Of a DNA stretch of 64,000 nt, positions 5,453 to 30,712 are shown piece by piece (the first letter of the stretch is position 1; each line of letters starts with the position of its first letter). Source of the DNA: Blautia sp. (GTDB lineage: Bacteria > Bacillota > Clostridia > Lachnospirales > Lachnospiraceae); the NCBI GenBank assembly GCA_022769545.1, contig JALEJS010000024.1:186001-250000 (forward strand), written 5' to 3'. The notes beneath the pieces were generated by a model. It made no database searches. It worked only from the letters and a program-made list of their open reading frames with translations, and was not told the origin of the DNA. Made by a program: the position numbers and the translations under genes.

Positions 5453-5504
5453 GTCATTCCCCCAATACATTTGATCTGCTCTGTAAACAGTTCCATTTCC
5501 ATTT

Positions 5505-5533: not shown

Positions 5534-5570
5534 TCTTTTTTTGAAAAAATCTTTTTCTATGACATTTTTT

Positions 5571-10547: not shown

Positions 10548-10617
10548 GCAAAATTATTTTAGTTACCTAAAAAAATTTAGTATTCACTATTGCATTTTCC
10601 CGGACATGTGATAATAT
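10548..10617 (+). promoter_or_regulatory. dpaL promoter with upstream operator boxes
   Basis: TTGCAT (10590-10595), 16-bp spacer, TAATAT (10612-10617). The box CCTAAAAAAATTTAG begins at 10566, exactly 24 bp upstream of the -35, and CTATTG leads into the -35 as at ygeY and ssnA. A weaker copy (GCAAAATTATTTT) begins 18 bp further upstream. The box is a near-palindrome, CTAAA-N4-TTTAG. Confidence 0.65.
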
Positions 10618-10672
10618 AGATGTATAACAAACTTTTTGTATTAAAACCAAAATTTTTAAGGAGGTTTTTTTC

Positions 10673-11899
10673 ATGTCAGAAGAATTGAAATGGGCACTCA
10701 ATAAAATGCCGAAAACCGATGACCGGTACCTGAATATCATGTCCCGGGAGAATGTGGTAAAAGCAAACAATTTCCACAGAAGCTTTCCGCAGTACAGTGT
10801 GACACCATTACATAAACTTTCCAGAATGGCTGACTACCTTGGAATCCGAAATCTTTACGTCAAAGACGAAGCATACCGCTTCAATCTGAACGCCTTCAAG
10901 GTTCTGGGCGGCTCCTATGCCATCGGAAGATTTATCGCCAAACAGCTGAACAAGGACATTTCCGAGCTGCCGTACAATGTTCTTTCCTCTGATAAGCTTC
11001 GTCAGGAATTCGGCCAGGCGACATTCTTTACTGCAACAGACGGAAACCATGGAAGAGGCGTTGCATGGGCTGCAAACAAGCTTGGACAGAAAGCCGTTGT
11101 CCGCATGCCAAAGGGAACCACTCAGACCCGCCTGAAAAACATCGAAAAAGAAAATGCAGTGGTCACCATTGAAGATATGAATTACGATGACTGTGTACGG
11201 CTTGCCGCAAAAGAAGCAGCTGAAACGCCCAACGGTGTCATGGTACAGGACACTGCCTGGGACGGTTACGAGGAAATCCCTACCTGGATCATGCAGGGAT
11301 ACGGAACACTGGCACTGGAGGCATCCAGACAGGTCATCGCCGACGGCTGCGAATGTCCGACCCACATCTTTGTCCAGGCCGGTGTGGGATCTCTGGCTGG
11401 TGCTGTGATCGGCTATTTCGCCAATAAATATCCGGACAATCCTCCCATCATGTGTGTGGTGGAAGCACAGGCTGCAGACTGTCTGTACCGGTCCTGTGTG
11501 GAACAGAAGCGTGTAAATGTGGGCGGAGATATGCAGACGATCATGGCAGGACTTGCCTGCGGAGAATCCAATACCATCTCCTGGGACATCCTGCAGAATC
11601 ATGCCGCTGCATTCTTCTCCTGTCCGGACTGGATGAGCGCAAAAGGAACCCGCATGTATGGCGTTCCTCTGGCCGGTGATCCTACCGTGATCTCCGGAGA
11701 ATCCGGTTCGGTTACCATGGGACTTCTCGCCTGCCTTTTCCGTGACAAAGAGAAATACGCAGATATCCGGGAAGCGATCCACCTGGACGAAAATTCCGAA
11801 GTGCTTCTGATCTCCACCGAAGGAAACACGGATCCGATCCGTTTCCGCGAGATCGTCTGGGACGGACTGTACGGAATGAATAAGACAAACGTAAAATAA
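10673..11899 (+). CDS. dpaL: 2,3-diaminopropionate ammonia-lyase
   Basis: PLP enzyme (E. coli ygeX) that converts 2,3-diaminopropionate into pyruvate and two ammonia. The PLP lysine is Lys76 in LNAFKVLGGSYA, the substrate loop is ATDGNHGRGVA near residue 120, and 408 residues matches the family. The start is an ATG eight bases behind AAGGAGG. In purine clusters it is the last carbon-releasing step, and pyruvate can then enter nifJ. It has its own promoter with the shared operator box and ends in a strong terminator, so it is transcribed alone on the plus strand. Confidence 0.95.
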   Translation: MSEELKWALNKMPKTDDRYLNIMSRENVVKANNFHRSFPQYSVTPLHKLSRMADYLGIRNLYVKDEAYRFNLNAFKVLGGSYAIGRFIAKQLNKDISELPYNVLSSDKLRQEFGQATFFTATDGNHGRGVAWAANKLGQKAVVRMPKGTTQTRLKNIEKENAVVTIEDMNYDDCVRLAAKEAAETPNGVMVQDTAWDGYEEIPTWIMQGYGTLALEASRQVIADGCECPTHIFVQAGVGSLAGAVIGYFANKYPDNPPIMCVVEAQAADCLYRSCVEQKRVNVGGDMQTIMAGLACGESNTISWDILQNHAAAFFSCPDWMSAKGTRMYGVPLAGDPTVISGESGSVTMGLLACLFRDKEKYADIREAIHLDENSEVLLISTEGNTDPIRFREIVWDGLYGMNKTNVK

Positions 11900-11919
11900 T
11901 CAGCCATACAGACTCCGAA

Positions 11920-11971
11920 AAAAGACCGAAAGGTTCCGGCGAATCGTACACCGGAGCTTTTCGGTCCTTTT
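11920..11971. terminator. Bidirectional terminator between dpaL and the half-length DUF1015 gene
   Basis: A long stem of about 20 bp with minor mismatches (AAAAGACCGAAAGG ... CCTTTTCGGTC-type pairing around an 11-base loop), bounded by A- and T-runs. It serves both convergent genes. Confidence 0.85.
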
Positions 11972-11982
11972 AATTTCTGAAA

Positions 11983-12483
11983 TCATTGTATACAGCAGGT
12001 TCTGACAGGCAGCGTCAGTCCATTTTCCTGAATTTCCCTAAGCTGCTCCCTGGACGGCGGATAAAGGACAAACAATGCCCCGCCGCTTTTATCCGCAATC
12101 TGCTGCATCTGTTCGAGTGTCACGGAATTGTCCATGAGAAAAATCCGTTCATCCGTCAGCGGATCGGTAATCCCCAGAACAGGACGCATCACTTTATCCT
12201 GCAGAATCGTCACGTCCAGGGCATCCAGAAGCGTTTTCCCTTCGTAAACATCCGGGTATGCCTTCAGATGATACCAGTGCCCCAGCAGATACAGACCAAA
12301 GCAGTGCGGTTCCACCGGTCTGCAAACAAATCCCGGAGGCATTCCCATCACCTCAAAATGAAATTTCAGGCTTCCCACAAACGCCTGCTCAGAAAGACCA
12401 TTCAGATCCCGTACAATTCTGTGACAGGGCAGAATCTTTCCGGAGCTCTTCTTCTCCATGCCAACATCCCTCATTTCTTCCAA
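11983..12483 (-). CDS. DUF1015 C-terminal half, stand-alone paralogue
   Basis: A 166-residue frame that aligns only to the C-terminal part of the full-length DUF1015 protein at 6379-7623 (shared blocks NRVVHDLNG / HRIVRDLNG, then LDVSILQ / LDVTILQ and LGIEDP / LGITDP). The central ADGHHRA motif and everything N-terminal are missing. The frame is uninterrupted and begins at a TTG nine bases behind GAGGAG, so it may be expressed. It could be a partner subunit, a regulator, or the preserved stump of a second DUF1015 gene. It is inserted on the minus strand between dpaL and ygeY. Confidence 0.6.
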   Translation of the reverse strand: MEEMRDVGMEKKSSGKILPCHRIVRDLNGLSEQAFVGSLKFHFEVMGMPPGFVCRPVEPHCFGLYLLGHWYHLKAYPDVYEGKTLLDALDVTILQDKVMRPVLGITDPLTDERIFLMDNSVTLEQMQQIADKSGGALFVLYPPSREQLREIQENGLTLPVRTCCIQ

Positions 12484-12550
12484 TTCTCAACGCTCCTCTT
12501 TTCAAAATCTTCGGATTATTCTATCACATTCCACCTGTCTTTACAATCTT

Positions 12551-12622
12551 CCTAAATATTTTTTGAAAAACCTAAATATTTTTGTATTTTCCTATTGCAA
12601 ATTGCAGGAAATATGGTATGAT
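12551..12622 (+). promoter_or_regulatory. ygeY-ygeW promoter with two operator boxes
   Basis: TTGCAA (12595-12600), 16-bp spacer, TATGAT (12617-12622). Two copies of CCTAAATATTTTT begin at 12551 and 12571, exactly 20 bp apart, and the nearer one is exactly 24 bp upstream of the -35, as at dpaL and ssnA. Confidence 0.65.
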
Positions 12623-12685
12623 AGAATCAGAAACAAAGAAATGCTGAATTGTTATCAGATATATTTTTAAGGGAGGTATTATTTC

Positions 12686-14002
12686 ATGGATTACAACAAA
12701 ATCAATGAAGCAGCAAAAGGTTATGAAGCAGATATGACCAGGTTTCTCCGCGACCTGGTTCTGATTCCCGGCGAAAGCTGTGATGAGAAAGGTCACATCA
12801 TGAGAATCAAAGAAGAAATGGAAAAAGTCGGCTTTGACAAAGTGGAAATCGACGGAATGGGCAATGTTCTCGGATATATGGGAACCGGCAAAACTCTTAT
12901 CGCCTTCGACGCTCACATTGACAATGTCGGCATTGGAAATATTAACAACTGGGAATTTGATCCGTACAAGGGTTACGAAAACGACGAGGAAATCGGCGGC
13001 CGCGGAACTTCCGATCAGATGGGCGGCATCGTATCCGCAGTGTACGGCGCAAAAATCATGAAAGACCTCGGTCTTCTCACCGATGAGTACCAGGTACTGG
13101 TAACCGGTACCGTTCAGGAGGAAGACTGTGACGGTCTGTGCTGGCAGTACATCATCAAGGAAGATGGTGTCCGTCCTGAATTTGTTGTATCCACAGAGCC
13201 TACCGACGGCGGTATCTACCGCGGACATCGCGGACGTATGGAGATCCGTGTGGATGTAAAAGGTATCTCCTGCCACGGCTCCGCACCGGAACGTGGTGAC
13301 AACGCCATCTACAAAATGGCTGACATTCTCCAGGACGTAAGAGCCCTGAATGAAAATGATGCGGCTGATGAGACAGAAATCAAGGGTCTTGTCAAAATGC
13401 TGGACAAAAAATACAATCCGGAATGGGAAGAGGCAAATTTCCTTGGCCGCGGAACCGTTACGGTATCCGAGATTTTCTACACTTCTCCGAGCCGCTGTGC
13501 TGTCGCAGACTCCTGTGCGATCTCTCTTGACCGTCGTATGACTGCCGGAGAAACATGGGAGAGCTGTCTGGATGAAATCCGTGCACTTCCGGCTGTAAAG
13601 AAATACGGAGATGACGTTGTTGTATCCATGTATCAGTATGAGCGTCCGGCCTGGACCGGTCTGGTTTACCCCATCGAATGCTACTTCCCCACATGGGTGA
13701 TTTCCAAAGATGACGTCATCACACAGTCTCTGGAAGAAGTACATAAAAATCTCTACGGTGACAGTCGTGTAGGAAACGCAGAGACCGAGGCTATGCGTAA
13801 GGCACGCCCGCTTACCGACAAGTGGACCTTCTCCACAAACGGTGTAACGATCATGGGAAGAAACGGAATCAAATGTATCGGTTTCGGACCGGGTGCAGAA
13901 GCTCAGGCACATGCTCCGAACGAAAAGACATGGAAGATCGACCTGGTTCGCTGCGCTGCCATCTATGCCGCTCTTCCGACCGTATACTGCAAAAACAAAT
14001 AA
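12686..14002 (+). CDS. ygeY: YgeY-type M20 family metallohydrolase
   Basis: A 438-residue zinc-dependent M20 amidohydrolase/deacylase. The metal-binding motif is FDAHIDNVG near residue 75 with [11 protein letters not shown] following; a dimerisation-domain motif [13 protein letters not shown] ... CHGSAPERG lies near residue 180-205 and the last metal ligand is in EAQAHAPNE. In purine clusters YgeY is proposed to hydrolyse a ureido (carbamoylated) diaminopropionate intermediate. The start is an ATG behind GGGAGG. It is followed 48 bp later by ygeW in one transcript. Confidence 0.92.
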
Positions 14003-14050
14003 AACAAATTTCAGAATTCAAAACAAAGCCAAAATAAGGAGAAAACCATT

Positions 14051-15244
14051 ATGAAATGTTTACAGGATTATATCGACAAGCTGAACAGCCTGAACTTTAA
14101 AGAAATGTACAACAACGACTTCTTCTGGACCTGGGACAAAACCGATGAGGAGCTGGAAGCTGTGTTTACTGTGGCTGATGCCCTTCGCTTTATGAGAGAA
14201 AACAACATCTCCACAAAAGTATTCGAGAGCGGTCTTGGAATTTCCATCTTCCGTGACAATTCCACCCGTACCCGTTTTTCCTTTGCTTCCGCATGTAACC
14301 TTCTTGGTCTGGAAGTACAGGATCTGGACGAAAAGAAATCTCAGATCGCACACGGTGAGACCGTTCGTGAGACAGCAAACATGGTTTCCTTCATGGCTGA
14401 TGTCATCGGTATCCGTGACGATATGTATATCGGAAAAGGACACGCCTATCAGAAAGAATTCATGGATGCGGTTACCGAGGGCAACAAGGACGGAATTCTA
14501 GAGCAGAGACCGACTCTGGTAAATCTGCAGTGTGATGTGGACCATCCGACACAGTGTATGGCTGATATGCTCCACATCATTCACGAATTCGGCGGCGTAG
14601 AAAATCTGAAAGGCAAAAAACTTGCCATGACATGGGCATATTCTCCTTCCTACGGAAAACCGCTCTCCGTTCCGCAGGGCGTCATCGGTCTAATGACACG
14701 TTTCGGAATGGATGTCGTTCTGGCTCATCCGGAAGGATATGACGTGATGCCGGAAATCGAAGAAATCGCCAAGAAGAACGCTGCTGCTACCGGCGGATCC
14801 TTCACCAAGACCAACAGCATGGAAGAAGCCTTCAAGGATGCTGACATCGTTTATCCGAAGAGCTGGGCTCCCTTCGCTGCCATGGAAAAACGTACCAACC
14901 TTTATGGCGAAGGTGATTTCGACGGAATCGACAAGCTGGAAAAAGAGCTGCTGGCACAGAATGCACAGCACAAGGACTGGGCTTGTACCGAAGAACTTAT
15001 GAAGACTACAAAGGACGGAAAAGCCCTTTATCTGCACTGCCTGCCGGCTGACATCTCCGGCGTAAGCTGTGAGACCGGTGAAGTAGACGCTTCTGTATTT
15101 GACCGTTACAGAATTCCGCTTTACAAAGAAGCCAGCTTCAAACCATACATCATCGCAGCCATGATCATGCTTTCCAAATTTGAAAATCCTCAGGACATCC
15201 TGAAAAAACTGGAAGTAAAAGCTGCTCCGAGAATCTTGAAATAG
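14051..15244 (+). CDS. ygeW: YgeW knotted carbamoyltransferase
   Basis: A 397-residue member of the aspartate/ornithine carbamoyltransferase family. The carbamoyl-phosphate loop is DNSTRTRFSF near residue 75, a second phosphate site HPTQ appears in CDVDHPTQCMAD, and the family signature HCLPAD lies near residue 335. The physiological direction in this cluster is thought to be phosphorolysis of a ureido compound (for example a carbamoylated 2,3-diaminopropionate) to carbamoyl phosphate, which the downstream carbamate kinase can use to make ATP. It is preceded by GGAG and followed by a hairpin that separates it from carbamate kinase. Confidence 0.93.
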   Translation: MKCLQDYIDKLNSLNFKEMYNNDFFWTWDKTDEELEAVFTVADALRFMRENNISTKVFESGLGISIFRDNSTRTRFSFASACNLLGLEVQDLDEKKSQIAHGETVRETANMVSFMADVIGIRDDMYIGKGHAYQKEFMDAVTEGNKDGILEQRPTLVNLQCDVDHPTQCMADMLHIIHEFGGVENLKGKKLAMTWAYSPSYGKPLSVPQGVIGLMTRFGMDVVLAHPEGYDVMPEIEEIAKKNAAATGGSFTKTNSMEEAFKDADIVYPKSWAPFAAMEKRTNLYGEGDFDGIDKLEKELLAQNAQHKDWACTEELMKTTKDGKALYLHCLPADISGVSCETGEVDASVFDRYRIPLYKEASFKPYIIAAMIMLSKFENPQDILKKLEVKAAPRILK

Positions 15245-15255
15245 TATTATCATTC

Positions 15256-15286
15256 AAAGGGGGCTGTATCACCTACAGCCTCCTTT
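15256..15286 (+). terminator. Terminator-like hairpin between ygeW and carbamate kinase
   Basis: A 13-bp stem (AAAGGGGGCTGTA with TACAGCCTCCTTT, one G-T wobble, five-base loop) followed by TTGTATTT. I see no promoter between it and the next gene, so it probably acts as a leaky terminator that lowers carbamate kinase expression relative to ygeW. Confidence 0.7.
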
Positions 15287-15308
15287 TGTATTTACAGGAG
15301 GTTTTGTG

Positions 15309-16253
15309 ATGTTTACCAGAAAAAGAATTGTCATTGCACTGGGCGGCAACGCATTGGGAAATACCCTTCCGGAACAGATGATCGCCGTGAAATCTACTGC
15401 CAAAGCGCTGTGTGACCTGATTGAAGAAGGTCATCAGGTTGTCGTCGTTCACGGAAATGGTCCGCAGGTTGGAATGATCAACAATGCCATGGCTGCTCTT
15501 ACCAGAGAAAATCCAAACCAGCCAAATACACCGCTCTCCGTCAGTGTGGCCATGAGCCAGGCCTACATTGGCTATGACCTTCAGAACGCACTGCGGGAGG
15601 AACTGCGCAAACGCGGCTTCGTCCGCACTCCGGTGGTTACCATTGTCACACAGGTACGTGTGGATCCGGAGGATCCTGCCTTTGAGAATCCTACCAAACC
15701 GATCGGTCATTTTATGACAAAGGAAGAGGCCGAGCATGCTTCCAAGGCTTACGGCTATGTTGTCAAAGAGGATGCCGGACGGGGATACCGCCGTGTGGTT
15801 GCTTCACCGAAGCCGGTGGAGATCGTTGAACTGGATGCCATCAACAGTCTGGTGGATGCAGGAAAAATTGTCATCTGCTGCGGCGGCGGCGGAATTCCTG
15901 TCACGCTGCAGGGAGATCACCTGAAAGGGGCATCCGCCGTAATCGACAAAGATTTCGCAAGCTGTCTCCTCGCAAAACAGATCAACGCAGACATGCTGAT
16001 CATCCTCACTGCTGTGGAAAAGGTTGCCATCAATTTCGGCAAGGAAAACGAAGAATGGCTGGAGGATCTCACAGTATCTCAGGCAAAGCAGTATATCCAG
16101 GACGGCCATTTTGCCGCAGGCTCCATGCTGCCGAAGGTTCAGGCCGCTGTTGATTTTGCAGAATCCGGTGCCGGACACACCGCCCTGATCACGCTCCTTG
16201 AAAAGGCGAAAGAAGGAATCATGGGAAAAACCGGCACGAAGATTCATTTGTAG
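15309..16253 (+). CDS. arcC: Carbamate kinase
   Basis: Transfers phosphate from carbamoyl phosphate to ADP, giving ATP, ammonia and CO2. The 314-residue length is typical; ALGGNALG at the N-terminus, HGNGPQVG near residue 50 and the glycine-rich CCGGGGIPV loop near 195 are carbamate kinase hallmarks. The ATG at this position has AGGAGG seven bases upstream; a GTG one codon earlier is less likely. As the third gene after ygeY-ygeW it captures energy from the carbamoyl groups removed from the purine skeleton (E. coli yqeA is the analogue). Confidence 0.94.
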   Translation: MFTRKRIVIALGGNALGNTLPEQMIAVKSTAKALCDLIEEGHQVVVVHGNGPQVGMINNAMAALTRENPNQPNTPLSVSVAMSQAYIGYDLQNALREELRKRGFVRTPVVTIVTQVRVDPEDPAFENPTKPIGHFMTKEEAEHASKAYGYVVKEDAGRGYRRVVASPKPVEIVELDAINSLVDAGKIVICCGGGGIPVTLQGDHLKGASAVIDKDFASCLLAKQINADMLIILTAVEKVAINFGKENEEWLEDLTVSQAKQYIQDGHFAAGSMLPKVQAAVDFAESGAGHTALITLLEKAKEGIMGKTGTKIHL

Positions 16254-16300
16254 AAGAAACATCTGACAGGCTGCAATTCCTGATTTTGCCCAAAAACTGC

Positions 16301-16329
16301 TTGTCAATTCTCTCTTTCAAATGTATACT
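16301..16329 (+). promoter_or_regulatory. Strong promoter of the microcompartment gene pair
   Basis: TTGTCA, 17-bp spacer, TATACT, one of the closest sigma-A matches in the window, about 55 bp before the first shell gene. It does not carry the CCWAAA box of the dpaL, ygeY and ssnA promoters. Confidence 0.7.
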
Positions 16330-16382
16330 GTAGGTATATACAATGAAGCTTATGATGAATCATCAGGAAATGGGGAAACAAT

Positions 16383-16682
16383 ATGGCAGAAAATTATAAC
16401 GGCATGGCACTTGGGGTTTTTGAGATGGATAATCTGGTTGCCTGCTATGTTGCACTGGATGCTGCATCTAAGGCAGCAAATGTAAAAATTCAGAGTGTGG
16501 AAAGAAATCGTTTAAAAAGCGGAGCCTGCGTGAAAATCAGAGGGTCTGTATCCGATGTGAACGCAGCCATGGAGGTGGCGATCGAAACCGGAAAGCCGCT
16601 GGGCAAGCTGGTTTCTCATACCGTCATTGCCTCTCCCACTGCAGACACAGAAATCGCTGCAAAAATGACGATCAGCAAATAA
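16383..16682 (+). CDS. Bacterial microcompartment hexameric shell protein (BMC-H), copy 1
   Basis: A 99-residue single BMC domain of the PduA/EutM type. Conserved features are ALGVFEMDNLVACYVALDAA at the start, the edge lysine in SKAANVKI that tiles hexamers into sheets, the RGSVSDVNAAMEVA helix and the closing strand LVSHTVIASP. Such proteins form the facets of protein-shelled organelles that hold volatile or toxic intermediates. No pentamer (EutN/CcmL), trimer or signature aldehyde enzyme is found nearby. It is immediately followed by a second shell gene and lies inside the purine island, implying a shell around part of that pathway. Confidence 0.9.
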   Translation: MAENYNGMALGVFEMDNLVACYVALDAASKAANVKIQSVERNRLKSGACVKIRGSVSDVNAAMEVAIETGKPLGKLVSHTVIASPTADTEIAAKMTISK

Positions 16683-16706
16683 CGGATTGGAAGAGAGGGC
16701 AAAATC

Positions 16707-16997
16707 ATGAGATACGGAGCTTTTGGATTAGTAGAAGTACTGGGAAGCAGCAACGCAATTCTTGTCATCGACCAGATGCTGAAAACTTCCGATGTGACAT
16801 TTAAGACATGGAATACAAAATGCGGAGGACATGCGACGGTCTTTCTGAGCGGAGATGTGGCTGCAGTGAAAGCAGCGGTGGACAGCGTTACTTCCGCTCC
16901 TCCCTGCGAGATCATTGCTTCTGCAGTGATTTCCGCTCCATCTGAGGAAACCGTCCGTCTGGTGGAGGAAGATGCTGCAAAACATCATTTCAGCTGA
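16707..16997 (+). CDS. Bacterial microcompartment hexameric shell protein (BMC-H), copy 2
   Basis: A 96-residue single BMC domain, clearly different from copy 1. It shows AFGLVEVLGSSNAILVIDQM, the edge lysine in QMLKTSDVTF, GDVAAVKAAVDSV and the strand IIASAVISAP, then a short charged C-terminal tail. It starts 24 bp after copy 1 with GAGAGGG ahead of the ATG and ends at a strong hairpin, so the two form a two-gene transcript. Divergence between the two copies suggests they occupy different positions in a mixed shell, or have different pore properties. Confidence 0.87.
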   Translation: MRYGAFGLVEVLGSSNAILVIDQMLKTSDVTFKTWNTKCGGHATVFLSGDVAAVKAAVDSVTSAPPCEIIASAVISAPSEETVRLVEEDAAKHHFS

Positions 16998-17042
16998 TAT
17001 AATGAGTCTTCTTCGATAAAGATAAATATACTGTAATAATAG

Positions 17043-17070
17043 AAAGCCAGTCCCTAGCCGGACTGGTTTT
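17043..17070. terminator. Bidirectional terminator between the shell genes and mocA
   Basis: An 11-bp stem (AAAGCCAGTCC with GGACTGGTTTT, one wobble) closes a six-base loop with T-rich flanks both ways. The stop codon of the convergent mocA-like gene falls in the loop. Confidence 0.8.
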
Positions 17071-17638
17071 CTGGTTTTTGGTCCAGATCTGTGAGCTCCT
17101 TTTCTTCTTCCACCGGATACCATGTCGTATCCTCCTGATGCATCATGAGAATCTTTTTTCCGCCCACATCCCCTTCCAGGGCCTCCAGTTCTCCATAATA
17201 ATCCCTGTGAAAGATACACGGATTTCCCATTTGGTCATTGCAGACGACGCCTCCGATTTTCTTACCCGAAAGAAGGAACTGATGAATCAGTCCTTCTATG
17301 GTCTCCTTTCGAAGCCAGGGCTGATCCGCCACTGCAAACAGACAGGCATCTGCGTCTTTGTTCGCCCGGATTCCCAGACGGACAGAATAGGAAATCCCCC
17401 GCTCCGGATATTCATTGAAAATCGCTGTGGCACATACTTCCTCTGCCTTTGCGGCAATTTCCGCATATTGTGTCACAACCGTAACCGAAAACGCCGTCGG
17501 ATTGGATTTATAAATTTCCGTCAGTCGATCCAGAACATATTCATACATACATTTTCCGCCGATCTGATACAGCAGCTTATTAGACCCGAAACGTCTGCTG
17601 TTTCCTGCCGCAAGCAGAATCAAAGCAATTTTTTTCAA
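17054..17638 (-). CDS. mocA: Molybdenum hydroxylase cofactor nucleotidyltransferase (MocA/YgfJ type)
   Basis: About 194 residues of MobA-like nucleotidyltransferase fold: LLAAGNSRRFGSNKLL at the N-terminus binds the nucleotide and FAVADQPWLR near residue 100 carries the metal aspartate. MocA joins CMP to molybdopterin to give the cytosine dinucleotide cofactor of xanthine dehydrogenase-family enzymes. The most upstream in-frame ATG would overlap yqeC by 37 bases and lacks a ribosome site. A TTG nine bases behind AGGAGA overlaps the yqeC stop codon as TTGA, so I place the start there. Last gene of the hydroxylase operon. Confidence 0.85.
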   Translation of the reverse strand: MKKIALILLAAGNSRRFGSNKLLYQIGGKCMYEYVLDRLTEIYKSNPTAFSVTVVTQYAEIAAKAEEVCATAIFNEYPERGISYSVRLGIRANKDADACLFAVADQPWLRKETIEGLIHQFLLSGKKIGGVVCNDQMGNPCIFHRDYYGELEALEGDVGGKKILMMHQEDTTWYPVEEEKELTDLDQKPENQSG

Positions 17639-18357
17639 AAAATAATTTCTCCTTTTCTCATACTTCCGCAAAAGGCCCGGATTCCTGCTTTTTGGGTCTG
17701 TGTCAGAAGTTCCTCCAGAAATGCCCTGTCCGGCACCGTATCGGATTTATTGAAACAGACAAGATATTCTGCTTTTCCGATTCCTTTTTTCAGAGCGTTC
17801 CCGGAAGCAGCTATTTTTACAAGATCCCGCACCGTCACCGTATCGGAAATACTCTTTTCCAGAAAAGCTGCAACCTCCCGGGGACGATGTGCCGTATCAC
17901 AGATTTTTTCTCCCAGACAGTCAAGCCCGATCACGCCGATCACAAGATCCGTCTGTTCCGGAATCACCGGTTCATAATCCCTCGGAACCTTCAGCGGTTT
18001 TCTCCCGGCACCGTCCGCCTCCACCAGCATCACGTCACACAGCTCCCTCATCCATCTCAGTTCCTGCGCACTGCATGCTCCCAGCTTCTGAATATCCGCA
18101 AGCTCACATCCCGTAACCGTAAACCCGTATCGGTAAATCTGATCCGCTATTTTTTCAGGATCATTTGCCGGAGCAAAGGGCTGCCCGGGATCCCAGGCCA
18201 TATGCGTAGTGGTGGCAACGATCACTTTTCTGTTCTCACTTACATACTCTCTCGCCAGCCGAAAGATCAGGCTGGTTTTTCCTCCGCCCCCTGTCAGGGC
18301 GATCAGCCATTTCTTCTGTGTATCCAGATTCAGGATATCCCGAAAATTCTGTATCAT
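17635..18357 (-). CDS. yqeC: Selenium-dependent hydroxylase accessory protein YqeC
   Basis: A roughly 240-residue cytoplasmic NTPase-like protein with a P-loop TGGGGKTSLIF near residue 25. YqeC-family proteins occur together with YqeB in clusters of selenium-dependent molybdenum hydroxylases and are thought to help mature or load the cofactor; the reaction is not established. The start is an ATG whose first bases overlap the yqeB stop (ATGA), with GGAGGGG upstream. Translation is therefore probably coupled with yqeB before it and mocA after it. Confidence 0.88.
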   Translation of the reverse strand: MIQNFRDILNLDTQKKWLIALTGGGGKTSLIFRLAREYVSENRKVIVATTTHMAWDPGQPFAPANDPEKIADQIYRYGFTVTGCELADIQKLGACSAQELRWMRELCDVMLVEADGAGRKPLKVPRDYEPVIPEQTDLVIGVIGLDCLGEKICDTAHRPREVAAFLEKSISDTVTVRDLVKIAASGNALKKGIGKAEYLVCFNKSDTVPDRAFLEELLTQTQKAGIRAFCGSMRKGEIIF

Positions 18358-19172
18358 TTTGAAATCCCCTCCGCACCCGGAAGTACCTTCTGCGAGATCA
18401 GAATCTCCAGAACACTTCCCGCAATGCATCTGGCTTTATCCGAAATGGTAAAACAGTTTTCCCGTTCGGATTCTCTCGGATCAATGTCTGCTATTTTCAG
18501 ACCTTCCCGAACCGGATATCCGTCCCGGATAATGCCTCTGAGTACACCGGAAATGGAGGCATAAACCGGAGTTTCTCCCACCCGGGCCAGAACCTGTCCC
18601 TTCTCTACCAGATCCGCAATCTCTGTCTGATTATGAATGATTCCTGAAGCCGGAGAATGAATCACTCTCTCCTTCCCCACCCCGGCAATCATCCCCGGAA
18701 TCCCGGTATTCGGAATTGCACATCCCTGTGTGATGATTCTGCCCAGTGAATGTCCCCGCATGGTTTCCACCACAAAATCCACATCCGCTCCTGCCTGAAA
18801 GCCCGGACCGAGTGCAATGGTAAGCGGCGCCATATCCTTCTCGGTACCAAGATTCTTCTTCGCCAGAATGGCATCGATCACCGCTGCCGGACGGATCTGC
18901 CGGACAGCATTCGCTTCCGGATCGACCAGAAGAGGAATCTCATCCTTTTCCCAGACATCTTCGCACTGCTCCACGCATTCAATGCTTCGGCAGCAAACTC
19001 CCTCGATCCGGACCACGCCCTCATACACTGCTTCACAAAAAGCCACTTTTCGACGGATGGCACTTGGCAGCGCGCTTTCCAGTATCAGTATTTTGTATCC
19101 ACACCGGAAAAGGCGGTGGATCACACCGCTGGCAAGATCTCCGCCTCCCCGTACCACAATTCTGTTTGTCAT
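18354..19172 (-). CDS. yqeB: Selenium-dependent molybdenum hydroxylase maturation protein YqeB
   Basis: A 272-residue protein with a Rossmann-like N-terminus (IVVRGGGDLASGVIHRL) and a C-terminal biotinyl/lipoyl-like beta segment (HSPASGIIHNQTEIADLVEKGQ). The family is a marker of enzymes that carry a labile, non-selenocysteine selenium in the molybdenum site, and it is related to XdhC-type maturation factors. Whether the selenium step is catalysed here is inferred from genomic association. It overlaps the upstream [2Fe-2S] subunit gene by four bases and yqeC by four. Confidence 0.9.
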   Translation of the reverse strand: MTNRIVVRGGGDLASGVIHRLFRCGYKILILESALPSAIRRKVAFCEAVYEGVVRIEGVCCRSIECVEQCEDVWEKDEIPLLVDPEANAVRQIRPAAVIDAILAKKNLGTEKDMAPLTIALGPGFQAGADVDFVVETMRGHSLGRIITQGCAIPNTGIPGMIAGVGKERVIHSPASGIIHNQTEIADLVEKGQVLARVGETPVYASISGVLRGIIRDGYPVREGLKIADIDPRESERENCFTISDKARCIAGSVLEILISQKVLPGAEGISK

Positions 19173-20547: not shown

Positions 20548-20560
20548 AACCATTCCCCCC

Positions 20561-22834: not shown

Positions 22835-22868
22835 AAGACTACCTCCCACCTCACCATAATTGATATAG

Positions 22869-22996: not shown

Positions 22997-23002
22997 TATA
23001 AG

Positions 23003-23031
23003 ATTCTAACATAATGCATCATGATTTGCAA
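23003..23031 (-). promoter_or_regulatory. Promoter of the hydroxylase-maturation operon
   Basis: TTGCAA, 17-bp spacer, TAGAAT on the minus strand in the 240-bp gap before the molybdenum subunit gene. The -10 lies inside TTAGAATCT (23001-23009), whose inverted copy AGATTCTAA sits at 22943-22951, so a protein operator is also possible. Confidence 0.6.
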
Positions 23032-23073
23032 CTGTTTTTATGCTGTTTTACCAATCTATACTCTGATGAGTTT

Positions 23074-23541: not shown

Positions 23542-23543
23542 AA

Positions 23544-26129
23544 TCAGTCCTCCTTTCTTTCATATGGAGTTCCGGAGACCGGCAGCTGATAGCGGCGCAC
23601 TCTGTCATACTGATAGTACGCTTCCGAGACAGCCGGCGCCGTAGGAATGGAAGTGATCTCACCGATTCCGATTGCTCCGCAGGCCACATTCAGTCCCGGC
23701 TTGTCGATCACAATCGCTTTAATTTCCGGAATCTGGTCTGCACGGAACAGGCCAAGAGATCCATATTTATCAATTGGTCTGCAGTTTTCATCTATGGGAT
23801 ACTGTTCTGTCAGGGCATACCCCATTCCCATGACAATACCGCCTTCAATCTGTCCCTCGCAGGAAAGAGGATTCACTGCTTTTCCCACATCATGGGCTCC
23901 CAGCATTTTCTTCACTCTTCCGGTATCCGGATCCAGGATACACACCTGCGTCGCGTATCCATAGGCCACATGAGAAACCGGATTTGGTACATCCGCACCC
24001 AGCGGATCGGTCTTTGCCAGATATTCTCCGTAATAGACCCTTCCTGCCATATCCTTCAGACTCAATCCCGCATTGCGGTCCTTCATCAGCTCACGCGCCG
24101 CACGGATGCAGGCTTCCCCTGTCACAAGTGTCTGACGGGAACCGGATGTGACTCCGGAATCCGGTGAATACCAGGTATTGCTTCTCTCATAAACAATGTC
24201 CTCCGGACAGAGATCTGTATTTTCCACCAGCATCTGCACAAGCACTGTACCCAGTCCCTGTCCGATGCAGGAAGCGCCGGTATAGATATGTACCTTCTCA
24301 TCTTCTTCCACCAGAAGCTTCACTCTTCCGGTATCCGCAATTCCGACACCGACACCGGCATTTTTCATGGCACAGGCAATTCCCACCGGATAACCCATCT
24401 GAACAGCCCGGTCATATTCTTCCTTTACCGCTTCCAGTGTTTCCACCAGTCCGGTTGATTCATCTACGATCTGTCCATTCGGAAGAACTCCCCCGGGCCG
24501 GATCGCATTCCGGTAACGGATTTCCCACGGAGAGATTCCAATCTTTTCCGCCATCATATTCAGCAGCGTCTCCGTAGCAAAGCAGGTCTGCGTCACACCA
24601 AAGCCCCGAAATGCTCCCGCCGGCGGATTGTTGGTGTAATAGGCTGTTCCCTCGATGTCAAAATTCTCATAGGCATAGGGGCCGGCCGCATGGGTACAGG
24701 CACGCTCCAGTACCGGTCCTCCAAGCGACGCATACGCTCCGGTATCCGTCATAACCTTTGCCTGAACGCCCTGAATAATTCCATTTTCATCACACCCCAT
24801 GGTGAAGTCCATTTCGAAATGATGTCTCTTCGGATGAACCAGCAGCGATTCCGCTCTTGAGAGCTTTACCTTCACAGGTCTTCTGGTCAGATAGGTGATC
24901 AGGGCAGCATAATGCTGCACGGTCATATCTTCCTTGCCGCCGAAGCCGCCTCCCACCAGCGCATTCTGTACTTTTATTTTGTCATTTCCTAAAACCAGGC
25001 TGCACTCATGAAGTGTCTGGTGTGCAGACTGATCTGTGGAATAAAGAAACACATCATCCTCTTCATCGATGAATGCCACCGCACATTCCGGCTCCAGGAA
25101 GGCATGCTCCGTCCACGGAGTCTCAAAATGATGCGAAATGACATGTCTGGAACCGGCAATGGCCTTTGCGGCGTCCCCGCGGCTGATATGCTGATGCTTA
25201 CAGATATTATCCGCCTCCTCATCAAACACCTTCGGCGCATTTTCGGCACCGGCTTCCCGGATATTATGAACTGCCGGGAGAACCTCATAATCCACCTGAA
25301 TCAGTTTTTTTGCCTTCTCCAGCGTCTGCGCATCCTCTGCCGCAATGAGCGCCACTGCATCACCAAGATAATGCGTCAGCCCTCCCTCAGGAATGAGCGT
25401 ATACTGATCATGCTTGATATGACCGATGAGATTCTCTCCCGGAATATCCTCCGCCGTATAGATTCCGACCACACCCGGAAGAGCGGCTGCCCTGGATGTA
25501 TCGATCTTTTTTACTCTGGCACGTGCATATCTGCTTCTCAGGACACCGCCGTACAGCATGCCGTCCGGATAATAATCATCCGGATATTTTCCGGTTCCAA
25601 GCACCTTTTCCCTGGCATCAATCCTCTGCACACGCGAGCCAAGCTTCCAGTCATCCGCACCTGCCTCTGGCAGCTTTCCCTCCTGACGGATCTTTGCCGC
25701 CAGCTTCACTGCCGCAATGATCTTGACATATCCGGTACAGCGACAGTAATTGTTCCGAAGGGCAAACCGGATCTCCGGCTCCGTCGGAGCCGGATTTTTG
25801 TCCAGTAATGCCTTGGTGCACATCACCATACCAGGGATACAGAAACCACACTGTACCGCGCCGGCTTCCGCAAAAGCAAAGCTGTACATCTGTTGTTCCC
25901 ACTCACTTAAACCTTCTGTGGTAATGATTTCTTTTCCATCCAGAGTATCTGTGAAAGGAATGCAGGCTTTACAGGTGTATCCGTCAATGATGACGGTACA
26001 CGCCCCGCAGGCACCTTCGCTGCAGCCGTCTTTCACAGAAGTCAGATGCAGCTCATCCCGCAAAAAGCGAAGCAGCTTCTGATTCTTGGATGGTTTGACC
26101 ACATTACCGTTAACTGTAAATACTGCCAC
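23544..26129 (-). CDS. xdhD: Selenium-dependent xanthine dehydrogenase-type hydroxylase, fused [2Fe-2S]-molybdenum subunit
   Basis: An 861-residue fusion. Residues 1-160 hold two [2Fe-2S] clusters (GCSEGACGACTV, CGFCIPG, CRCTGYVK); the remainder is the molybdopterin domain with GGGFGGKED, GAFRGFGVTQ and the catalytic glutamate in GIGEITSIPTAP. There is no FAD domain, so electrons probably leave through the polyferredoxin or YgfK. The start is a GTG behind AGAGGAG. Fusions of this type in purine clusters are classed as selenium-dependent hydroxylases; selenium would be a labile ligand, and I see no in-frame UGA. Confidence 0.9.
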   Translation of the reverse strand: MAVFTVNGNVVKPSKNQKLLRFLRDELHLTSVKDGCSEGACGACTVIIDGYTCKACIPFTDTLDGKEIITTEGLSEWEQQMYSFAFAEAGAVQCGFCIPGMVMCTKALLDKNPAPTEPEIRFALRNNYCRCTGYVKIIAAVKLAAKIRQEGKLPEAGADDWKLGSRVQRIDAREKVLGTGKYPDDYYPDGMLYGGVLRSRYARARVKKIDTSRAAALPGVVGIYTAEDIPGENLIGHIKHDQYTLIPEGGLTHYLGDAVALIAAEDAQTLEKAKKLIQVDYEVLPAVHNIREAGAENAPKVFDEEADNICKHQHISRGDAAKAIAGSRHVISHHFETPWTEHAFLEPECAVAFIDEEDDVFLYSTDQSAHQTLHECSLVLGNDKIKVQNALVGGGFGGKEDMTVQHYAALITYLTRRPVKVKLSRAESLLVHPKRHHFEMDFTMGCDENGIIQGVQAKVMTDTGAYASLGGPVLERACTHAAGPYAYENFDIEGTAYYTNNPPAGAFRGFGVTQTCFATETLLNMMAEKIGISPWEIRYRNAIRPGGVLPNGQIVDESTGLVETLEAVKEEYDRAVQMGYPVGIACAMKNAGVGVGIADTGRVKLLVEEDEKVHIYTGASCIGQGLGTVLVQMLVENTDLCPEDIVYERSNTWYSPDSGVTSGSRQTLVTGEACIRAARELMKDRNAGLSLKDMAGRVYYGEYLAKTDPLGADVPNPVSHVAYGYATQVCILDPDTGRVKKMLGAHDVGKAVNPLSCEGQIEGGIVMGMGYALTEQYPIDENCRPIDKYGSLGLFRADQIPEIKAIVIDKPGLNVACGAIGIGEITSIPTAPAVSEAYYQYDRVRRYQLPVSGTPYERKED

Positions 26130-26162
26130 GAACTACACTCCTCTCATTCCATGCATAGCATT

Positions 26163-29162
26163 TTATTTAAACAGCAGATATCTGTAATCATCGATCACCG
26201 CACAGATGATACTGCGAAGTCCTGCATACAGAGGATCTGACGGATCATCTGCCTTACAGTCTGTAATTCTGCCCAGGAAACGAACTCTGCACTTCTTCGT
26301 CTCCGGATTCAGTACCACAAATCCGTCATTGGAACTGTCTGCCATATGCTCCTCGCTGGCAAACAGAGTAAATTTATCTTTATAAGGCGAACTGGAATAC
26401 GGACAGAAAATCTTACAGTTACCGCATTCATTGCACATATAGTCCACATGGATAATCTGGTTCATGGCCATTCCCGGAACTTTTATGGATACATTTGCCC
26501 GGTTCGGACAGACATCCACACAGTTCTCACAAATCTTGCTGCAGTCCAGACACCGCTCACTCTCTGTACCGGATTCACAGCTGTGCGCCAGGATGCCCTT
26601 CTTTGCAAAGCAGCCTTCCTCTGTACCGGTCACCGGCTGATCTTCTGTCACAGATACACCGAGAATCGCCTCTGCCACAAGCTTCGCATCGCGGATTGCT
26701 TCCACGATGGTTGCCGCCTTCTTCGCACCGTCTCCGGCAAGATATACACCGGTATTGCTTGTCTCCAGCGTTTTTGGGTTCAGCTTCGGAATACCGCGTT
26801 CATCCACATTGATATCGTTAGCCTGATAGAATTCTGTAGGAATCTTCTCCCCTACCGCCACAAGTACCGTGTCTGCCGGAACAGCTTCCGTCTCACCGGT
26901 CTCAAATACACCCGCGCGTCCGGAGGCGTCCATCTCTCCCAGCTTCATCTTTTTGCAGAGCAGTTTTCCGTCTTCCAGGCTGACCGGAGCCAGAAGCTCT
27001 CTGAATTCAATGCCATCCTCCAGAAGCTCCAGAAGCTCATCTTCCGCTGCCGGCATGTAGCGCTTTGTTCTTCTGTAAACCAGATAGACATGCTCCACAC
27101 CTCTGGTCCGCTTTGCTGCCCTGGCTGTATCCATCGCCGTATTGCCGCCGCCGATCACAACAACATTCTTTCCAAGCTCCACATTTCCGCCGGATGCCTT
27201 AAAATCTGCCAGGAATTTCAGTGCATTGACGGTTTCACCCTTCTCCAGCTTCAGGCTGCCCGGCTTTCCTGCGCCCAGAGCCAGAATCACTGCATCATAT
27301 CCCATCGCCTTTACGTCGGCAACCGAAGCGATCTGCGTTCCGGTTCTGATTTCCACACCCATTTTCTCAATGAAGGAAACATCTTTGTCAATGTCCTCAT
27401 CGGAAATACGGAAACCTGGAATAACATAACGGATCACACCGCCCAGCTTCTCTTCCTTTTCAAAAATTGTCACAGAAGCTCCTGCTCTTGCCAGGAAATA
27501 TGCACTCGCAATTCCTGCGGGACCTCCGCCGACGATTGCCACCCGTTTCCCGTTGGACACGCCTGCACGGATTTCCCCGATCACCTCATCATATCCGTTT
27601 TCTGCCGCAATGAGCTTCGTACCACGGATATTCACCGGCTCCTCATAGAAGTTTCTGGTACATTTATACATACAGTGATGGGCACACAGCGTACCTGTGA
27701 TAAACGGCAGTGCATTTTTGGCCAGAATCACACGAAGCGCCTCTGCATATTTTCCTTCTCCCACAAGCTCCACATACTGCGGAATATCCTGGTGAATCGG
27801 ACATCCCTCATTGCACGGAGCAAAGAAGCAGTCGATCAGCGGAACCTCACCGGAAGACTTTCTGCCGGGAAGCGGTTTGATACTTTTCCGGTGATGCGGA
27901 TCGGTAAGCGCACTGTCTGCAAGTGCCTGCAAAGCGTCCACATCAGTGCCTTCCCACGCCTTCACACCGTCTGCCATCAGTTTTTCTGCCATCTGGGAAA
28001 ATCTCTGATATCCACCCGGTTTCAGAATGGTGGTTGCAACCGTTACCGGCCACACACCACAGCCTACGATACGCTGAATGTTGTAATTGTCCGCCCCGCC
28101 GGAGTATGCGATCCGAAGCTTTCCGTCAAATTCTTTTGACAGTTTTGCCGCCAGGGAGATGGAAAGCGGGAAAAGCGCCTTCCCGGACATATACATTTCT
28201 TCACTGGGGAGCTCGTTTCTGGTCACATCTACCGGGAAGGTATTGGTTATTTTCACACCGAACGAAAGATTCAGTTCTTCCGAAAGCGCGATCAGTCTGC
28301 GGAACATGGGAATGGCATCCTCATACTGAAGGTCATCTTTAAAGTGGAAATCGCCGAATACCATATAGTCATATCCCATATCATCCATGGTTTTTCTGGC
28401 AAACTCATATCCCAGGAGCGTCGGATTGCATTTGATAAACGTATTCAGATGCTTTTCGCGGAACAGATGATTTGCAATGCTCTCGATTTCATTGGGCGGA
28501 CATCCGTGCAGGGTGGAAATCGTGGCCGAATTACAGATATTGGAAGGAATCGCTTCAATATCTTCTTTTGTCACTTTTGAGAACCGGTCCACATTCTCCA
28601 GAAGCCACTGTCTGCATTCCCGGAAAACAGTCGTATCCTTCGCTTCCATCATGGAATCAATAAAGGTATTCACCTTTGGTTCCTTAATGCCGGCAAGATC
28701 ATATCCGACGGAAATATTAAACTGGAAGCCATCCGTATCCCCCAGTCCGAATTCCTTTGCCATCACATGAAGAATGAACCAGGCTTTGATATATTCTCCC
28801 ATGGCATCCGGGACGGTGAGCTCTGTGGACCACTCACAGTTATACCCCTCATCCTCCGCCAGAATACACGGTCTGTTTACACAGGCAGCCAGTTCCGCAC
28901 CATCCATTTTCTGAACCGTTTTCAGTTCAAAAAAACGGGCTCCTGCATAATAAGATGCAATGATATTCTGTGCAAGCTGGGAATTCGGGCCTGCTGCGGG
29001 TCCGATGGGTGTCTCCAGCTTTCTTCCGAAAAGCTCCATCTTTTTGGAGGCATCTGCATGATAAGGTCTGTGTACCCCAAATACGGTTCCTTTTGTTTTT
29101 TCTTCTTCCAGAACCCAGTCCATCAGCTGTCCAAAGGACATACAGGTCATTACTTCACTCAT
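26163..29162 (-). CDS. ygfK: YgfK multidomain iron-sulfur flavoprotein reductase
   Basis: A 999-residue protein annotated in databases as a putative selenate reductase subunit. The N-terminal ~420 residues resemble a dihydroorotate dehydrogenase-like FMN barrel (TPIGPAAGPN, ISTLHGCPPNEI). A glutamate synthase small-subunit-like segment follows, with cysteine cluster CNEGCPIHQD, FAD motif VAIVGGGPAGIASA and NAD motif VVVIGGGNTAMD. The C-terminus carries ferredoxin motifs CENCVDVCPNR and CNECGNCKIFCPY. Together these support a reductase moving electrons between NAD(P)H, ferredoxin and a purine. It sits 33 bp ahead of xdhD and 38 bp after ssnA in one transcript. Confidence 0.92.
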   Translation of the reverse strand: MSEVMTCMSFGQLMDWVLEEEKTKGTVFGVHRPYHADASKKMELFGRKLETPIGPAAGPNSQLAQNIIASYYAGARFFELKTVQKMDGAELAACVNRPCILAEDEGYNCEWSTELTVPDAMGEYIKAWFILHVMAKEFGLGDTDGFQFNISVGYDLAGIKEPKVNTFIDSMMEAKDTTVFRECRQWLLENVDRFSKVTKEDIEAIPSNICNSATISTLHGCPPNEIESIANHLFREKHLNTFIKCNPTLLGYEFARKTMDDMGYDYMVFGDFHFKDDLQYEDAIPMFRRLIALSEELNLSFGVKITNTFPVDVTRNELPSEEMYMSGKALFPLSISLAAKLSKEFDGKLRIAYSGGADNYNIQRIVGCGVWPVTVATTILKPGGYQRFSQMAEKLMADGVKAWEGTDVDALQALADSALTDPHHRKSIKPLPGRKSSGEVPLIDCFFAPCNEGCPIHQDIPQYVELVGEGKYAEALRVILAKNALPFITGTLCAHHCMYKCTRNFYEEPVNIRGTKLIAAENGYDEVIGEIRAGVSNGKRVAIVGGGPAGIASAYFLARAGASVTIFEKEEKLGGVIRYVIPGFRISDEDIDKDVSFIEKMGVEIRTGTQIASVADVKAMGYDAVILALGAGKPGSLKLEKGETVNALKFLADFKASGGNVELGKNVVVIGGGNTAMDTARAAKRTRGVEHVYLVYRRTKRYMPAAEDELLELLEDGIEFRELLAPVSLEDGKLLCKKMKLGEMDASGRAGVFETGETEAVPADTVLVAVGEKIPTEFYQANDINVDERGIPKLNPKTLETSNTGVYLAGDGAKKAATIVEAIRDAKLVAEAILGVSVTEDQPVTGTEEGCFAKKGILAHSCESGTESERCLDCSKICENCVDVCPNRANVSIKVPGMAMNQIIHVDYMCNECGNCKIFCPYSSSPYKDKFTLFASEEHMADSSNDGFVVLNPETKKCRVRFLGRITDCKADDPSDPLYAGLRSIICAVIDDYRYLLFK

Positions 29163-29200
29163 ATCGATTCATCTCCTTTTTTTATCTGTTTTCTACGACT

Positions 29201-30538
29201 CTATTTTCCGGCATTGATATCGTCTGCCAGTTCTTTTGCTGCCTGACGACAGTCTGCCATAATCTTATCTGCATCACATACCAGGATCTCCCGGTCTTTC
29301 ATGAGAACCTTTCCGTTACATACTGTCGTCACAACGCTGTTTCCGTTTGTTCCGAACAGAAGATGTCCGTTAACATTGTCCGCATGCATCGGGGTCAGCG
29401 GATTGTAATCCAGAACGATCACATCTGCTGCAGCACCTTCCTTCAGGACACCCAGCGGCTTTTTGAAATACCGGTTTGCAATCACTGCATTGTTTTCAAA
29501 AAGCATCTTCGGAACTTCTCCCCATGCAGCATTCGGATCACACAGATGATGCTTGTGAAGAATATTGGCAACCTTCCAGGATTCCAGCATATCGTGTGTG
29601 TAGCCATCCGTTCCGAGACCAGTGACAATTCCCTTGTGCACCAGAGCCATGGTAGGCGGACATCCGCAGGCATTTCCCATATTGGATTCCGGATTATGTA
29701 CGACCATGGTATCTGTGTCTTTGATCAGTTCCATCTCATGCTCATTGATGTAAATACAGTGGCCCAGAAGGGTTTTCGGTCCAAGAATATTCCAGTCATA
29801 CAGACGGTCCACGATCCGTTTGCTGTGCTCTTTCAGACACTGATGCAGATCATAGATTCCCTCTGCCACATGAATATGATATCCCACACCTTCCGGTTTC
29901 AGCTCATTGCAGAGTGCCATGGTCTCGTCTGAGATCGTGAAGGATGCATGCATACCCATCATTCCGGCAATCATATCACTGTCATCCGCAAGTGCATGTT
30001 TGATAAAATTCACATTCTCCATAACACTTTCTCTGGATTTGTCCATTCCGTCACGGTCTGAGATTTCATAGCACAGACAGGTACGAACCCCGAGATCCTT
30101 CGCTGCTTCCTCGATGGCAAACAGAGAACCTGTAATATGCCCAAAGCTTGCGTGATGGTCAAATACCGTGGTCACACCGCTTCGGATACAGTCGATATAT
30201 GTGGCATATGCAGAAAGCTTTGTCTGCTCCAGTGTCAGATGCCGGTCGATCGTCCACCACATTCCGTCCAGAATATCCAGAAAGCCCTGTGGATTATACC
30301 CTTTGATGCTCAGTCCCCGGGCAAAGGAGCTGTAGATATGCTCATGGGCATTGATAAATGCCGGCATGATCACACCACCCTTTGCATCAATGAATTCTGC
30401 ATTCGGATATGCTTTTTTTACGTCTGCTGTCAACCCCACCATGACTATGGTGTTACCATCCATTGCTACAGCGCCATTTTCAATAAATGCATTGGATGCG
30501 TCCCGTGTAATTGTTCTTCCATTTCCAATAATAAGCAT
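29201..30538 (-). CDS. ssnA: SsnA-type amidohydrolase
   Basis: A 445-residue amidohydrolase-superfamily enzyme related to guanine/cytosine-type deaminases. Metal ligands are visible in NAHEHIYSSF near residue 63, in the histidines around VFDHHASFG, in GYHIHVAEG and in GTDGYTHD. SsnA is named from a stationary-phase locus but occurs constantly in anaerobic purine clusters, where ring opening or deamination of a purine intermediate is proposed. The start is an ATG behind AGGAGGG. It is the first gene of the ssnA-ygfK-xdhD-polyferredoxin operon and has the most elaborate copy of the shared operator. Confidence 0.92.
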   Translation of the reverse strand: MLIIGNGRTITRDASNAFIENGAVAMDGNTIVMVGLTADVKKAYPNAEFIDAKGGVIMPAFINAHEHIYSSFARGLSIKGYNPQGFLDILDGMWWTIDRHLTLEQTKLSAYATYIDCIRSGVTTVFDHHASFGHITGSLFAIEEAAKDLGVRTCLCYEISDRDGMDKSRESVMENVNFIKHALADDSDMIAGMMGMHASFTISDETMALCNELKPEGVGYHIHVAEGIYDLHQCLKEHSKRIVDRLYDWNILGPKTLLGHCIYINEHEMELIKDTDTMVVHNPESNMGNACGCPPTMALVHKGIVTGLGTDGYTHDMLESWKVANILHKHHLCDPNAAWGEVPKMLFENNAVIANRYFKKPLGVLKEGAAADVIVLDYNPLTPMHADNVNGHLLFGTNGNSVVTTVCNGKVLMKDREILVCDADKIMADCRQAAKELADDINAGK

Positions 30539-30619
30539 ATGATACCCTCCTTTTTATTTGTAAATATTTGCCTAAATCATTTGATATTCAATAAAACTCT
30601 TTAGGTATTATATATAAAT

Positions 30620-30712
30620 ACTGTAGCACAGTTCCTGCTTTATTTCAATAGCAAAATACAAAATCTTTTTGGCTTACTCAATATTTTTTTGGTATTTATA
30701 AAATACTTTTGG
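30620..30712 (-). promoter_or_regulatory. ssnA promoter with three phased operator boxes
   Basis: On the minus strand TTGAAA (30648-30643), 17-bp spacer, TACAGT (30625-30620). Three CCAAAA-type boxes begin at 30712, 30692 and 30672, each exactly 20 bp apart, and the nearest is exactly 24 bp upstream of the -35. Matches include CCAAAAAGATTTTG and CCAAAAGTATTTT. The 20-bp spacing (about two helical turns) would put bound proteins on one DNA face. This explains most of the gene-free stretch 30539-30793. Confidence 0.65.

Follow-up and report, generated by a model that had tools for sequence, protein, structure and literature searches.

Does a likeness among three distant promoters in a purine island reflect a shared operator, and if so, which protein binds it? 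The locus is a 64,000-nucleotide stretch of Blautia sp. (contig JALEJS010000024.1, positions 186,001 to 250,000; the whole stretch is called the window), in which a preliminary description had noticed similar boxes at fixed distances upstream of dpaL, ygeY and ssnA. The shared operator architecture is confirmed as real and beyond chance by its spacing, pairing and conservation. The boxes are probably operators of the YheO-type regulator encoded at 5621..6256 (+) of the same window, which would control a purine/urate-degradation regulon, most likely by repression. From the sequence comparisons described below we give this reading a probability of about 0.6.

Re-reading of the letters placed the first C of each box at 10566 (+) before dpaL, at 12571 and 12551 (+) before ygeY, and at 30672, 30692 and 30712 (-) before ssnA, in agreement with the preliminary description. 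The distance from box start to the TTG of the -35 hexamer (10590, 12595 and 30648) is 24 bp at all three promoters, and the same positions bear out the 20-bp steps at ygeY (12551/12571) and ssnA (30672/30692/30712). At dpaL, the proximal box (10566..10581, +; CCTAAAAAAATTTAGT) has a weak distal companion (10548..10562, centre 10555, +; GCAAAATTATTTTAG) that sits 18 bp from it, again as described, and the core promoter (10590..10617, +) consists of the -35 TTGCAT at 10590-10595, a 16-bp spacer and the extended -10 TGA-TAATAT at 10609-10617. The distal (12551..12564, +; read from the sequence) and proximal (12571..12584, +) boxes of ygeY lead into a core promoter at 12595..12622 (+) with the -35 TTGCAA at 12595-12600, a 16-bp spacer and the extended -10 TGG-TATGAT at 12614-12622. 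Three boxes precede ssnA, at 30660..30672 (-), 30680..30692 (-) and 30700..30712 (-; read from the sequence), and its core promoter (30620..30648, -) combines the -35 TTGAAA at 30648-30643 with a 17-bp spacer and the extended -10 TGC-TACAGT at 30628-30620. The boxes had been summarised as CCWAAA-N4-TTT; they lie at the positions given, and the copy at 30692 (CCAAAAAAATATT) departs from the pattern, with ATT instead of TTT.

The 24-bp distance recurs in relatives. Across 40 loci of relatives carrying the cluster (717 kb, own genome left out), 27 box-to-TTG matches fell at offset 24 compared with 1-9 at each of the 23 other offsets between 16 and 39; two of the 27 (L116, L121) are unlike cluster promoters. 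The window itself holds four box-TTG pairs at offset 24 and also four at offset 31, and the relatives show no peak at 31. A stricter score applied to the 40 loci and the window returned 40 sites, three of them in the window and one judged spurious (L112:2706), while the other 36 were tabulated and matched by eye to upstream stretches of dpaL, ssnA or yheO. The stricter score finds sites on both strands in twelve of the 40 loci; there a single box pair is shared by two divergent promoters, with each -35 placed 24 bp from the nearer box. Pairs of consensus boxes within 45 bp of each other peak at a separation of 20 bp (4 of 4 with at most one mismatch, 9 of 19 with at most two). Single boxes with one mismatch numbered 44 in the loci against 22-32 in shuffles. 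The loose pattern CCWAAAN4TTT on its own was set aside as too common to inform.

A 51-position profile was built from 34 sites of relatives, with the window excluded; two L112 sites, one of them in a shifted register, were left out of the alignment. Scanning the own 2.96-Mb genome with this held-out profile, a matrix scan of the kind that the preliminary description had proposed, ranked the proximal boxes of ssnA (E value 4.6e-8, the genome's best), ygeY (1e-5) and dpaL (1.1e-4) as its top three. The fourth match (E 0.006) lies 56 bp upstream of an NCS2 permease open reading frame (ORF), which scores above the cutoff of TIGR00801 and just below that of TIGR03173 (xanthine permease). The proposed extension to orthologous clusters of relatives gave a concordant result, the 24-bp distance and the 20-bp pairing recurring in many genera. 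Pure chance and AT-richness are thus ruled out by the offset-24 peak, the held-out ranking and the 20-bp pairing. One further own-genome match (C29:60543, E 0.036), near a recombinase-like gene, is probably a chance hit.

The profile also delimits the regulon. Matches at E <=0.01 turned up in 32 of 60 genomes from the window's genus, the own genome being one of the 60. The classified set of 67 loci reduces to 61 distinct sites (G505, G508, G509, G498:C64 and G496:C80 left out), of which 56 precede ssnA (23), pbuX (17), dpaL (15) or ridA (1), with five others outside these. The geometry is different at pbuX. In all 17 of the sequences counted there, from the own genome and 16 others (an 18th, L403, was left out), the -35 TTGTTT is part of CTAATTGTTTTT, and a 17-bp spacer separates it from the -10. 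ridA carries the box in two genomes only, G025, with the 24-bp geometry, and G496; the tdcF named further below is taken to be a gene of the RidA type. The regulon architecture is specific and conserved in orthologous clusters, and the regulon is wider than was noted, taking in pbuX, ridA in two genomes and, outside the Blautia clade, yheO.

Extra profile matches in large genomes (hppA, a small conserved ORF, nuoE, yjjI) are partly significant. Boxes precede the sodium-translocating membrane pyrophosphatase gene hppA in three genera (L184, L187 and L191, from G046, G033 and G164); by hand reading they lie near -42/-62 in two genera, and in the third they lie between the -35 and the -10. A box pair also precedes the conserved ORF in three genera (L181, L183 and L189, from G149, G046 and G133). 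The common part of this ORF is about 28 amino acids, approximately AYI.VF.LLA...YP.I..G..K, and it is possibly an unannotated small protein of the regulon.

Co-inheritance, divergent position and, in most loci outside Blautia, boxes at its own promoter make the YheO-type regulator the best candidate for the protein that binds the boxes. The window's copy has a PAS_6 domain (PF08348, 118.2 bits, 2.2e-34) followed by HTH_22 (PF13309, 72.6 bits, 2.8e-20), both above cutoff; a search by sequence found no solved structure. In a survey of 200 genomes of the family, drawn evenly, ygeY occurs in 34 and a regulator orthologue (E <=1e-56) in 32. Both are present in 32 genomes, ygeY alone in two (G050, G053), the regulator alone in none, and neither in 166; in another five genomes the YheO matches are all more distant. 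By their coordinates yheO and ssnA are adjacent and divergently oriented in 20 of these 32 genomes, and in many relatives an intergenic box lies between the divergent genes. A profile match at E <=0.01 adjoins the cluster or yheO in 30 of the 32 regulator genomes, 22 of which gave training sites and eight of which were held out. The two genomes with ygeY and without the regulator have no match next to these genes at the same threshold.

Where yheO lies away from ssnA, it keeps its box in two genomes, G025 (on another contig; this site belonged to the training set) and G138 (~215 kb away). Among the best 80 of 506 yheO loci, which include some near-duplicates and two repeats of training contigs (L283, L288), 55 have a profile match within 450 bp upstream of yheO, as do 54 of the 65 outside the Blautia clade, Oscillibacter and Flavonifractor records among them. 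Beyond the family, ygeY was found in 17 of 290 other genomes of the class sample, 11 of which have no YheO match at E <=1e-15. Fourteen of the 17 have a profile match at E <=0.1 (best 4.7e-4), none within 5 kb of ygeY, ssnA not having been located there.

Three other observations concern regulator genes. In L041 (yheO of G077) a strong palindrome, CCTAAAAATATATTAGG, lies over the yheO core promoter, unlike the usual 24-bp geometry. In L291, L299 and L304 (two Pseudoflavonifractor/Flavonifractor records and one Anaerotruncus) a box lies about 2 kb downstream of the yheO start and perhaps marks another target promoter. One contig of Clostridium sp. Marseille-P2415 (L286/L292) carries the regulator gene twice, at a distance of some 8 kb, and both promoters have the same profile score.

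The more distant members of the family provide a separate line of evidence. A different palindrome core, ACTTTTTGT, lies upstream of 8 of 14 YheO paralogue genes (30-42% identical; L247-L258) and of none of 30 orthologues; in 500 shuffles it occurred 0.17 times on average and at most three times. As this 9-mer was picked after inspection, an unbiased check used the most-shared 9-mer of 200 shuffled sets, which was common to at most six upstreams compared with the eight observed. In the orthologues the recognition-helix region has the sequence ISK(Y/F)TLYSY; in most paralogues, with exceptions, it ends in YNY. The identification of a YheO-type protein as the binder thereby gains independent support, because the paralogues have analogous palindromes of their own.

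How such a protein might act is suggested by the promoters. The fixed 24-bp distance puts the box on the UP (upstream) element region, a point absent from the preliminary description. Positions -59 to -38 of the 34 sites match the UP-element consensus at 10.9/14, compared with 5.2 for generic promoter-like sequences (11.5 vs 5.4 at a shift of one); shuffles within the sites gave 6.9/14, and the window promoters 9-10/14. An extended -10 (TGn) is found in 36 of 37, 38 of 41 and 19 of 20 sites, compared with 19 of 127 generic promoter-like sequences. The last two of these sets are further sites, taken as hits reaching model position 47 (yheO side) or 48 (ssnA side), with one of the twins L286/L292 counted and with L283 and L288 (training contigs) and L294 (not a training contig) left out. 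The CTATTG that had been reported before the -35 is present in all three window promoters and is not general, as T at -2 is shared by 28 of 41 sites in one further set and by 7 of 20 in the other. The idea that CTATTG, one 20-bp step on, is a half-occupied third box was attractive in the window and was dropped, as it is not conserved in the 61 further sites.

Promoters of this kind look strong alone, and a protein bound at the box would deny polymerase its upstream contacts. Repression is favoured because of this promoter strength, the -35 inside the box at pbuX and the repressor precedent of Cj1387c, discussed below. The operator units are palindromes of ~15 bp (CTAAA-N5-TTTAG, the outer arm often TTTGTA); as a rule there are two, 20 bp apart, with their centres near -52 and -72. 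In the proximal box the A/T tracts coincide with the UP-element region of extended -10 promoters. In the proposed mechanism, bound dimers would deny RNA polymerase its upstream contacts or, at pbuX, the -35. Repression would be relieved once the PAS domain senses a purine-derived signal. The regulon so controlled would comprise ssnA-ygfK-xdh, dpaL, ygeY-ygeW, the NCS2 xanthine-type permease elsewhere in the genome and, in two other genomes, ridA. The comparisons show the sites, their geometry and conservation, the gene content and the co-inheritance with the regulator, and from these we infer the binder, its ligand and the sign of regulation; the cooperative binding proposed earlier is only suggested, by the 20-bp steps.

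Several observations weigh against the boxes themselves or against this reading of them. A single box is no rarity: with up to two mismatches allowed, the loci have 313 and their shuffles 382-398, and the loose pattern matches the own genome 69 times, fewer than the 201 matches of the reversed pattern. Because T at -2 and a -10 pattern raised the first site score, the training set and the profile are biased in these features. Two genomes with regulator and cluster (G069, G186) have no adjoining match at E <=0.01, and 25 of the 166 genomes without ygeY still have some match at that threshold (best 6e-5), those inspected being L190 and L194-L197. Outside the family, no box was found at the regulator gene of G460 (regulator 57% identical) or G446 (48%). 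In the Blautia clade the regulator gene has lost its own box or has it in degenerate form: 14 of the clade's 15 yheO loci are without a profile match, although three loci of this clade hold less than 150 bp of upstream sequence or start inside the gene. The promoter of the window's own yheO gave no match up to E 10, and hand reading finds there a degenerate box-like stretch at 5530..5543 (+; CCTATCTTTTTTTG). In the Blautia-clade loci (L261-L275) the regulator gene has neither ssnA nor dpaL as a neighbour, while the genus' ssnA, dpaL and pbuX keep their boxes.

The same regulator bound to the same operators might instead be an activator, its dimers at -52 and -72 (and -92 at ssnA) recruiting RNA polymerase from one helical face, with repression only where boxes cover the core promoter, as at pbuX and a few others. 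An activator, too, would need a constant distance and could have a linker of varying sequence, and 24 bp is kept at ssnA, yheO, dpaL, ygeY and the ridA of one genome. No -35 among the 98 tabulated sites is TTGACA, and the hand-read position of the hppA boxes in two genera is activator-like. However, the extended -10 in nearly all promoters suggests strong basal activity, the box encloses the -35 of pbuX in all 17 sequences, and the characterised relative Cj1387c is described as a repressor (PMC4519771). We regard activation as possible though rather unlikely.

It is improbable that another transcription factor binds the boxes, with yheO merely one of its targets. Such a factor would account for box pairs before genes without an obvious purine link in some large genomes (hppA, the small ORF, nuoE) and for a Blautia-clade yheO that lost its box while other targets kept theirs. 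It would leave unexplained why yheO is co-inherited with the cluster and keeps its box in most loci outside Blautia, in two genomes even when located elsewhere; the palindromes of the paralogues and the purine genes behind the four best own-genome sites also count against it. A further idea, that the boxes have no regulator of their own and are simply UP elements or AT-rich promoter DNA, draws on the match to the UP consensus and on the shuffle counts of two-mismatch single boxes. It is contradicted by the conserved C/G ends and palindromes, by a distal box beyond the UP region, by the box over the -35 at pbuX and by good matches confined to one regulon in the own genome and genus, and we consider it highly implausible. 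With the YheO-type repressor retained as the preferred reading, the system can be set beside known ones.

DauR of Pseudomonas and YheO of E. coli belong to the same family, DauR being a repressor of D-arginine catabolism; we know of no operator or purine link for either, and the literature searched brought up no relevant paper. PucR of Bacillus subtilis likewise governs a purine-catabolism regulon, and both its regulator family and its pathway differ from those of the window. CfiR (Cj1387c) of Campylobacter jejuni is a YheO-like PAS_6-HTH protein that represses a linked L-PSP gene (PMC4519771). By that description it shares the domain pair and a RidA-type target with the present system, where ridA is boxed in G025 and G496. 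However, its targets differ from the window regulon, and the passages on CfiR give no operator sequence (PMC4519771). Searches of open-access full texts brought up neither an operator of a YheO-type regulator nor an account of this architecture, and in a paper on the reductive urate pathway the words 'regulator', 'operator' and 'YheO' appear nowhere in the main text (PMC12507026).

The genes as such have already been published as a regulon. For Clostridioides, Clostridium and Desulfotomaculum, Nie et al. (2019) give a sigma-54 regulon of DioR, with its function entered as 'Unknown', that includes dpaL-pyrC-argE, tdcF, yqeB, pbuX, ygeW-ygfK-ssnA-ygeY and others (PMC6615313), and a C. difficile paper mentions DioR, pbuX and yqeB (PMC11448449). 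The claim of a previously undescribed regulon thus stands for the architecture in the literature searched and falls for the gene set, which in the regulon list of PMC6615313 is nearly that of the window (dpaL, ssnA, ygeY, pbuX, tdcF/ridA, yqeB and xdh-related genes). DioR as listed there is an enhancer-binding protein of the sigma-54 type and has a motif of its own, whereas the window system has sigma-A type promoters and a YheO-type regulator. One strict -24/-12 pattern had no match in the window, and sigma-54 control there was rejected on that ground. The same pattern matched once in 37 YheO-bearing loci (663 kb) compared with three times in 19 loci with ygeY from beyond the family (75 kb); it did not match in three loci of G050 and G053, the genomes without the regulator. 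From the DioR gene list and these counts, the same genes therefore seem to be under unrelated regulators in different lineages. We tentatively suggest a regulator swap, in which the urate-degradation regulon would be under DioR in Clostridium and under an unrelated YheO-type PAS regulator in Lachnospiraceae/Oscillospiraceae. The operator would double as an UP element for which regulator and alpha subunit compete, and each YheO subfamily would have its own palindrome; the whole of this picture is rather less probable than its converse.

Urate-degrading gut Lachnospiraceae are of interest in gout, and the switching of the pathway in them is undescribed in the literature searched. A defined operator, a regulon and a candidate sensor make purine-pathway switching testable, and the widespread, little-studied YheO family would gain a first operator and a candidate signal class.

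The genes behind the boxed promoters were assigned from protein family models. Diaminopropionate ammonia-lyase, dpaL (10673..11899, +), scores 590.5 bits against TIGR03528 (cutoff 532.25). The ygeY hydrolase (12686..14002, +; TIGR03526) is followed by ygeW (14051-15244; TIGR03316) and then carbamate kinase (15306-16253; TIGR00746), all above cutoff. On the other strand, ssnA (29201..30538, -; TIGR03314) has downstream of it ygfK (26163-29162, -; TIGR03315), a selenium-dependent xanthine dehydrogenase (23544-26129, -) and yqeB (18354-19172, -; TIGR03309), these three named models being above cutoff and TIGR03311 and NF043082 being among the models above cutoff for the ssnA-yqeB stretch; further xdh genes also lie downstream of ssnA on the same strand (Pfam). 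A second amidohydrolase gene (4076-5470, -) is divergent from the regulator gene, and two BMC-domain (microcompartment shell) genes (16383-16682 and 16707-16997, +) lie directly 3' of carbamate kinase.

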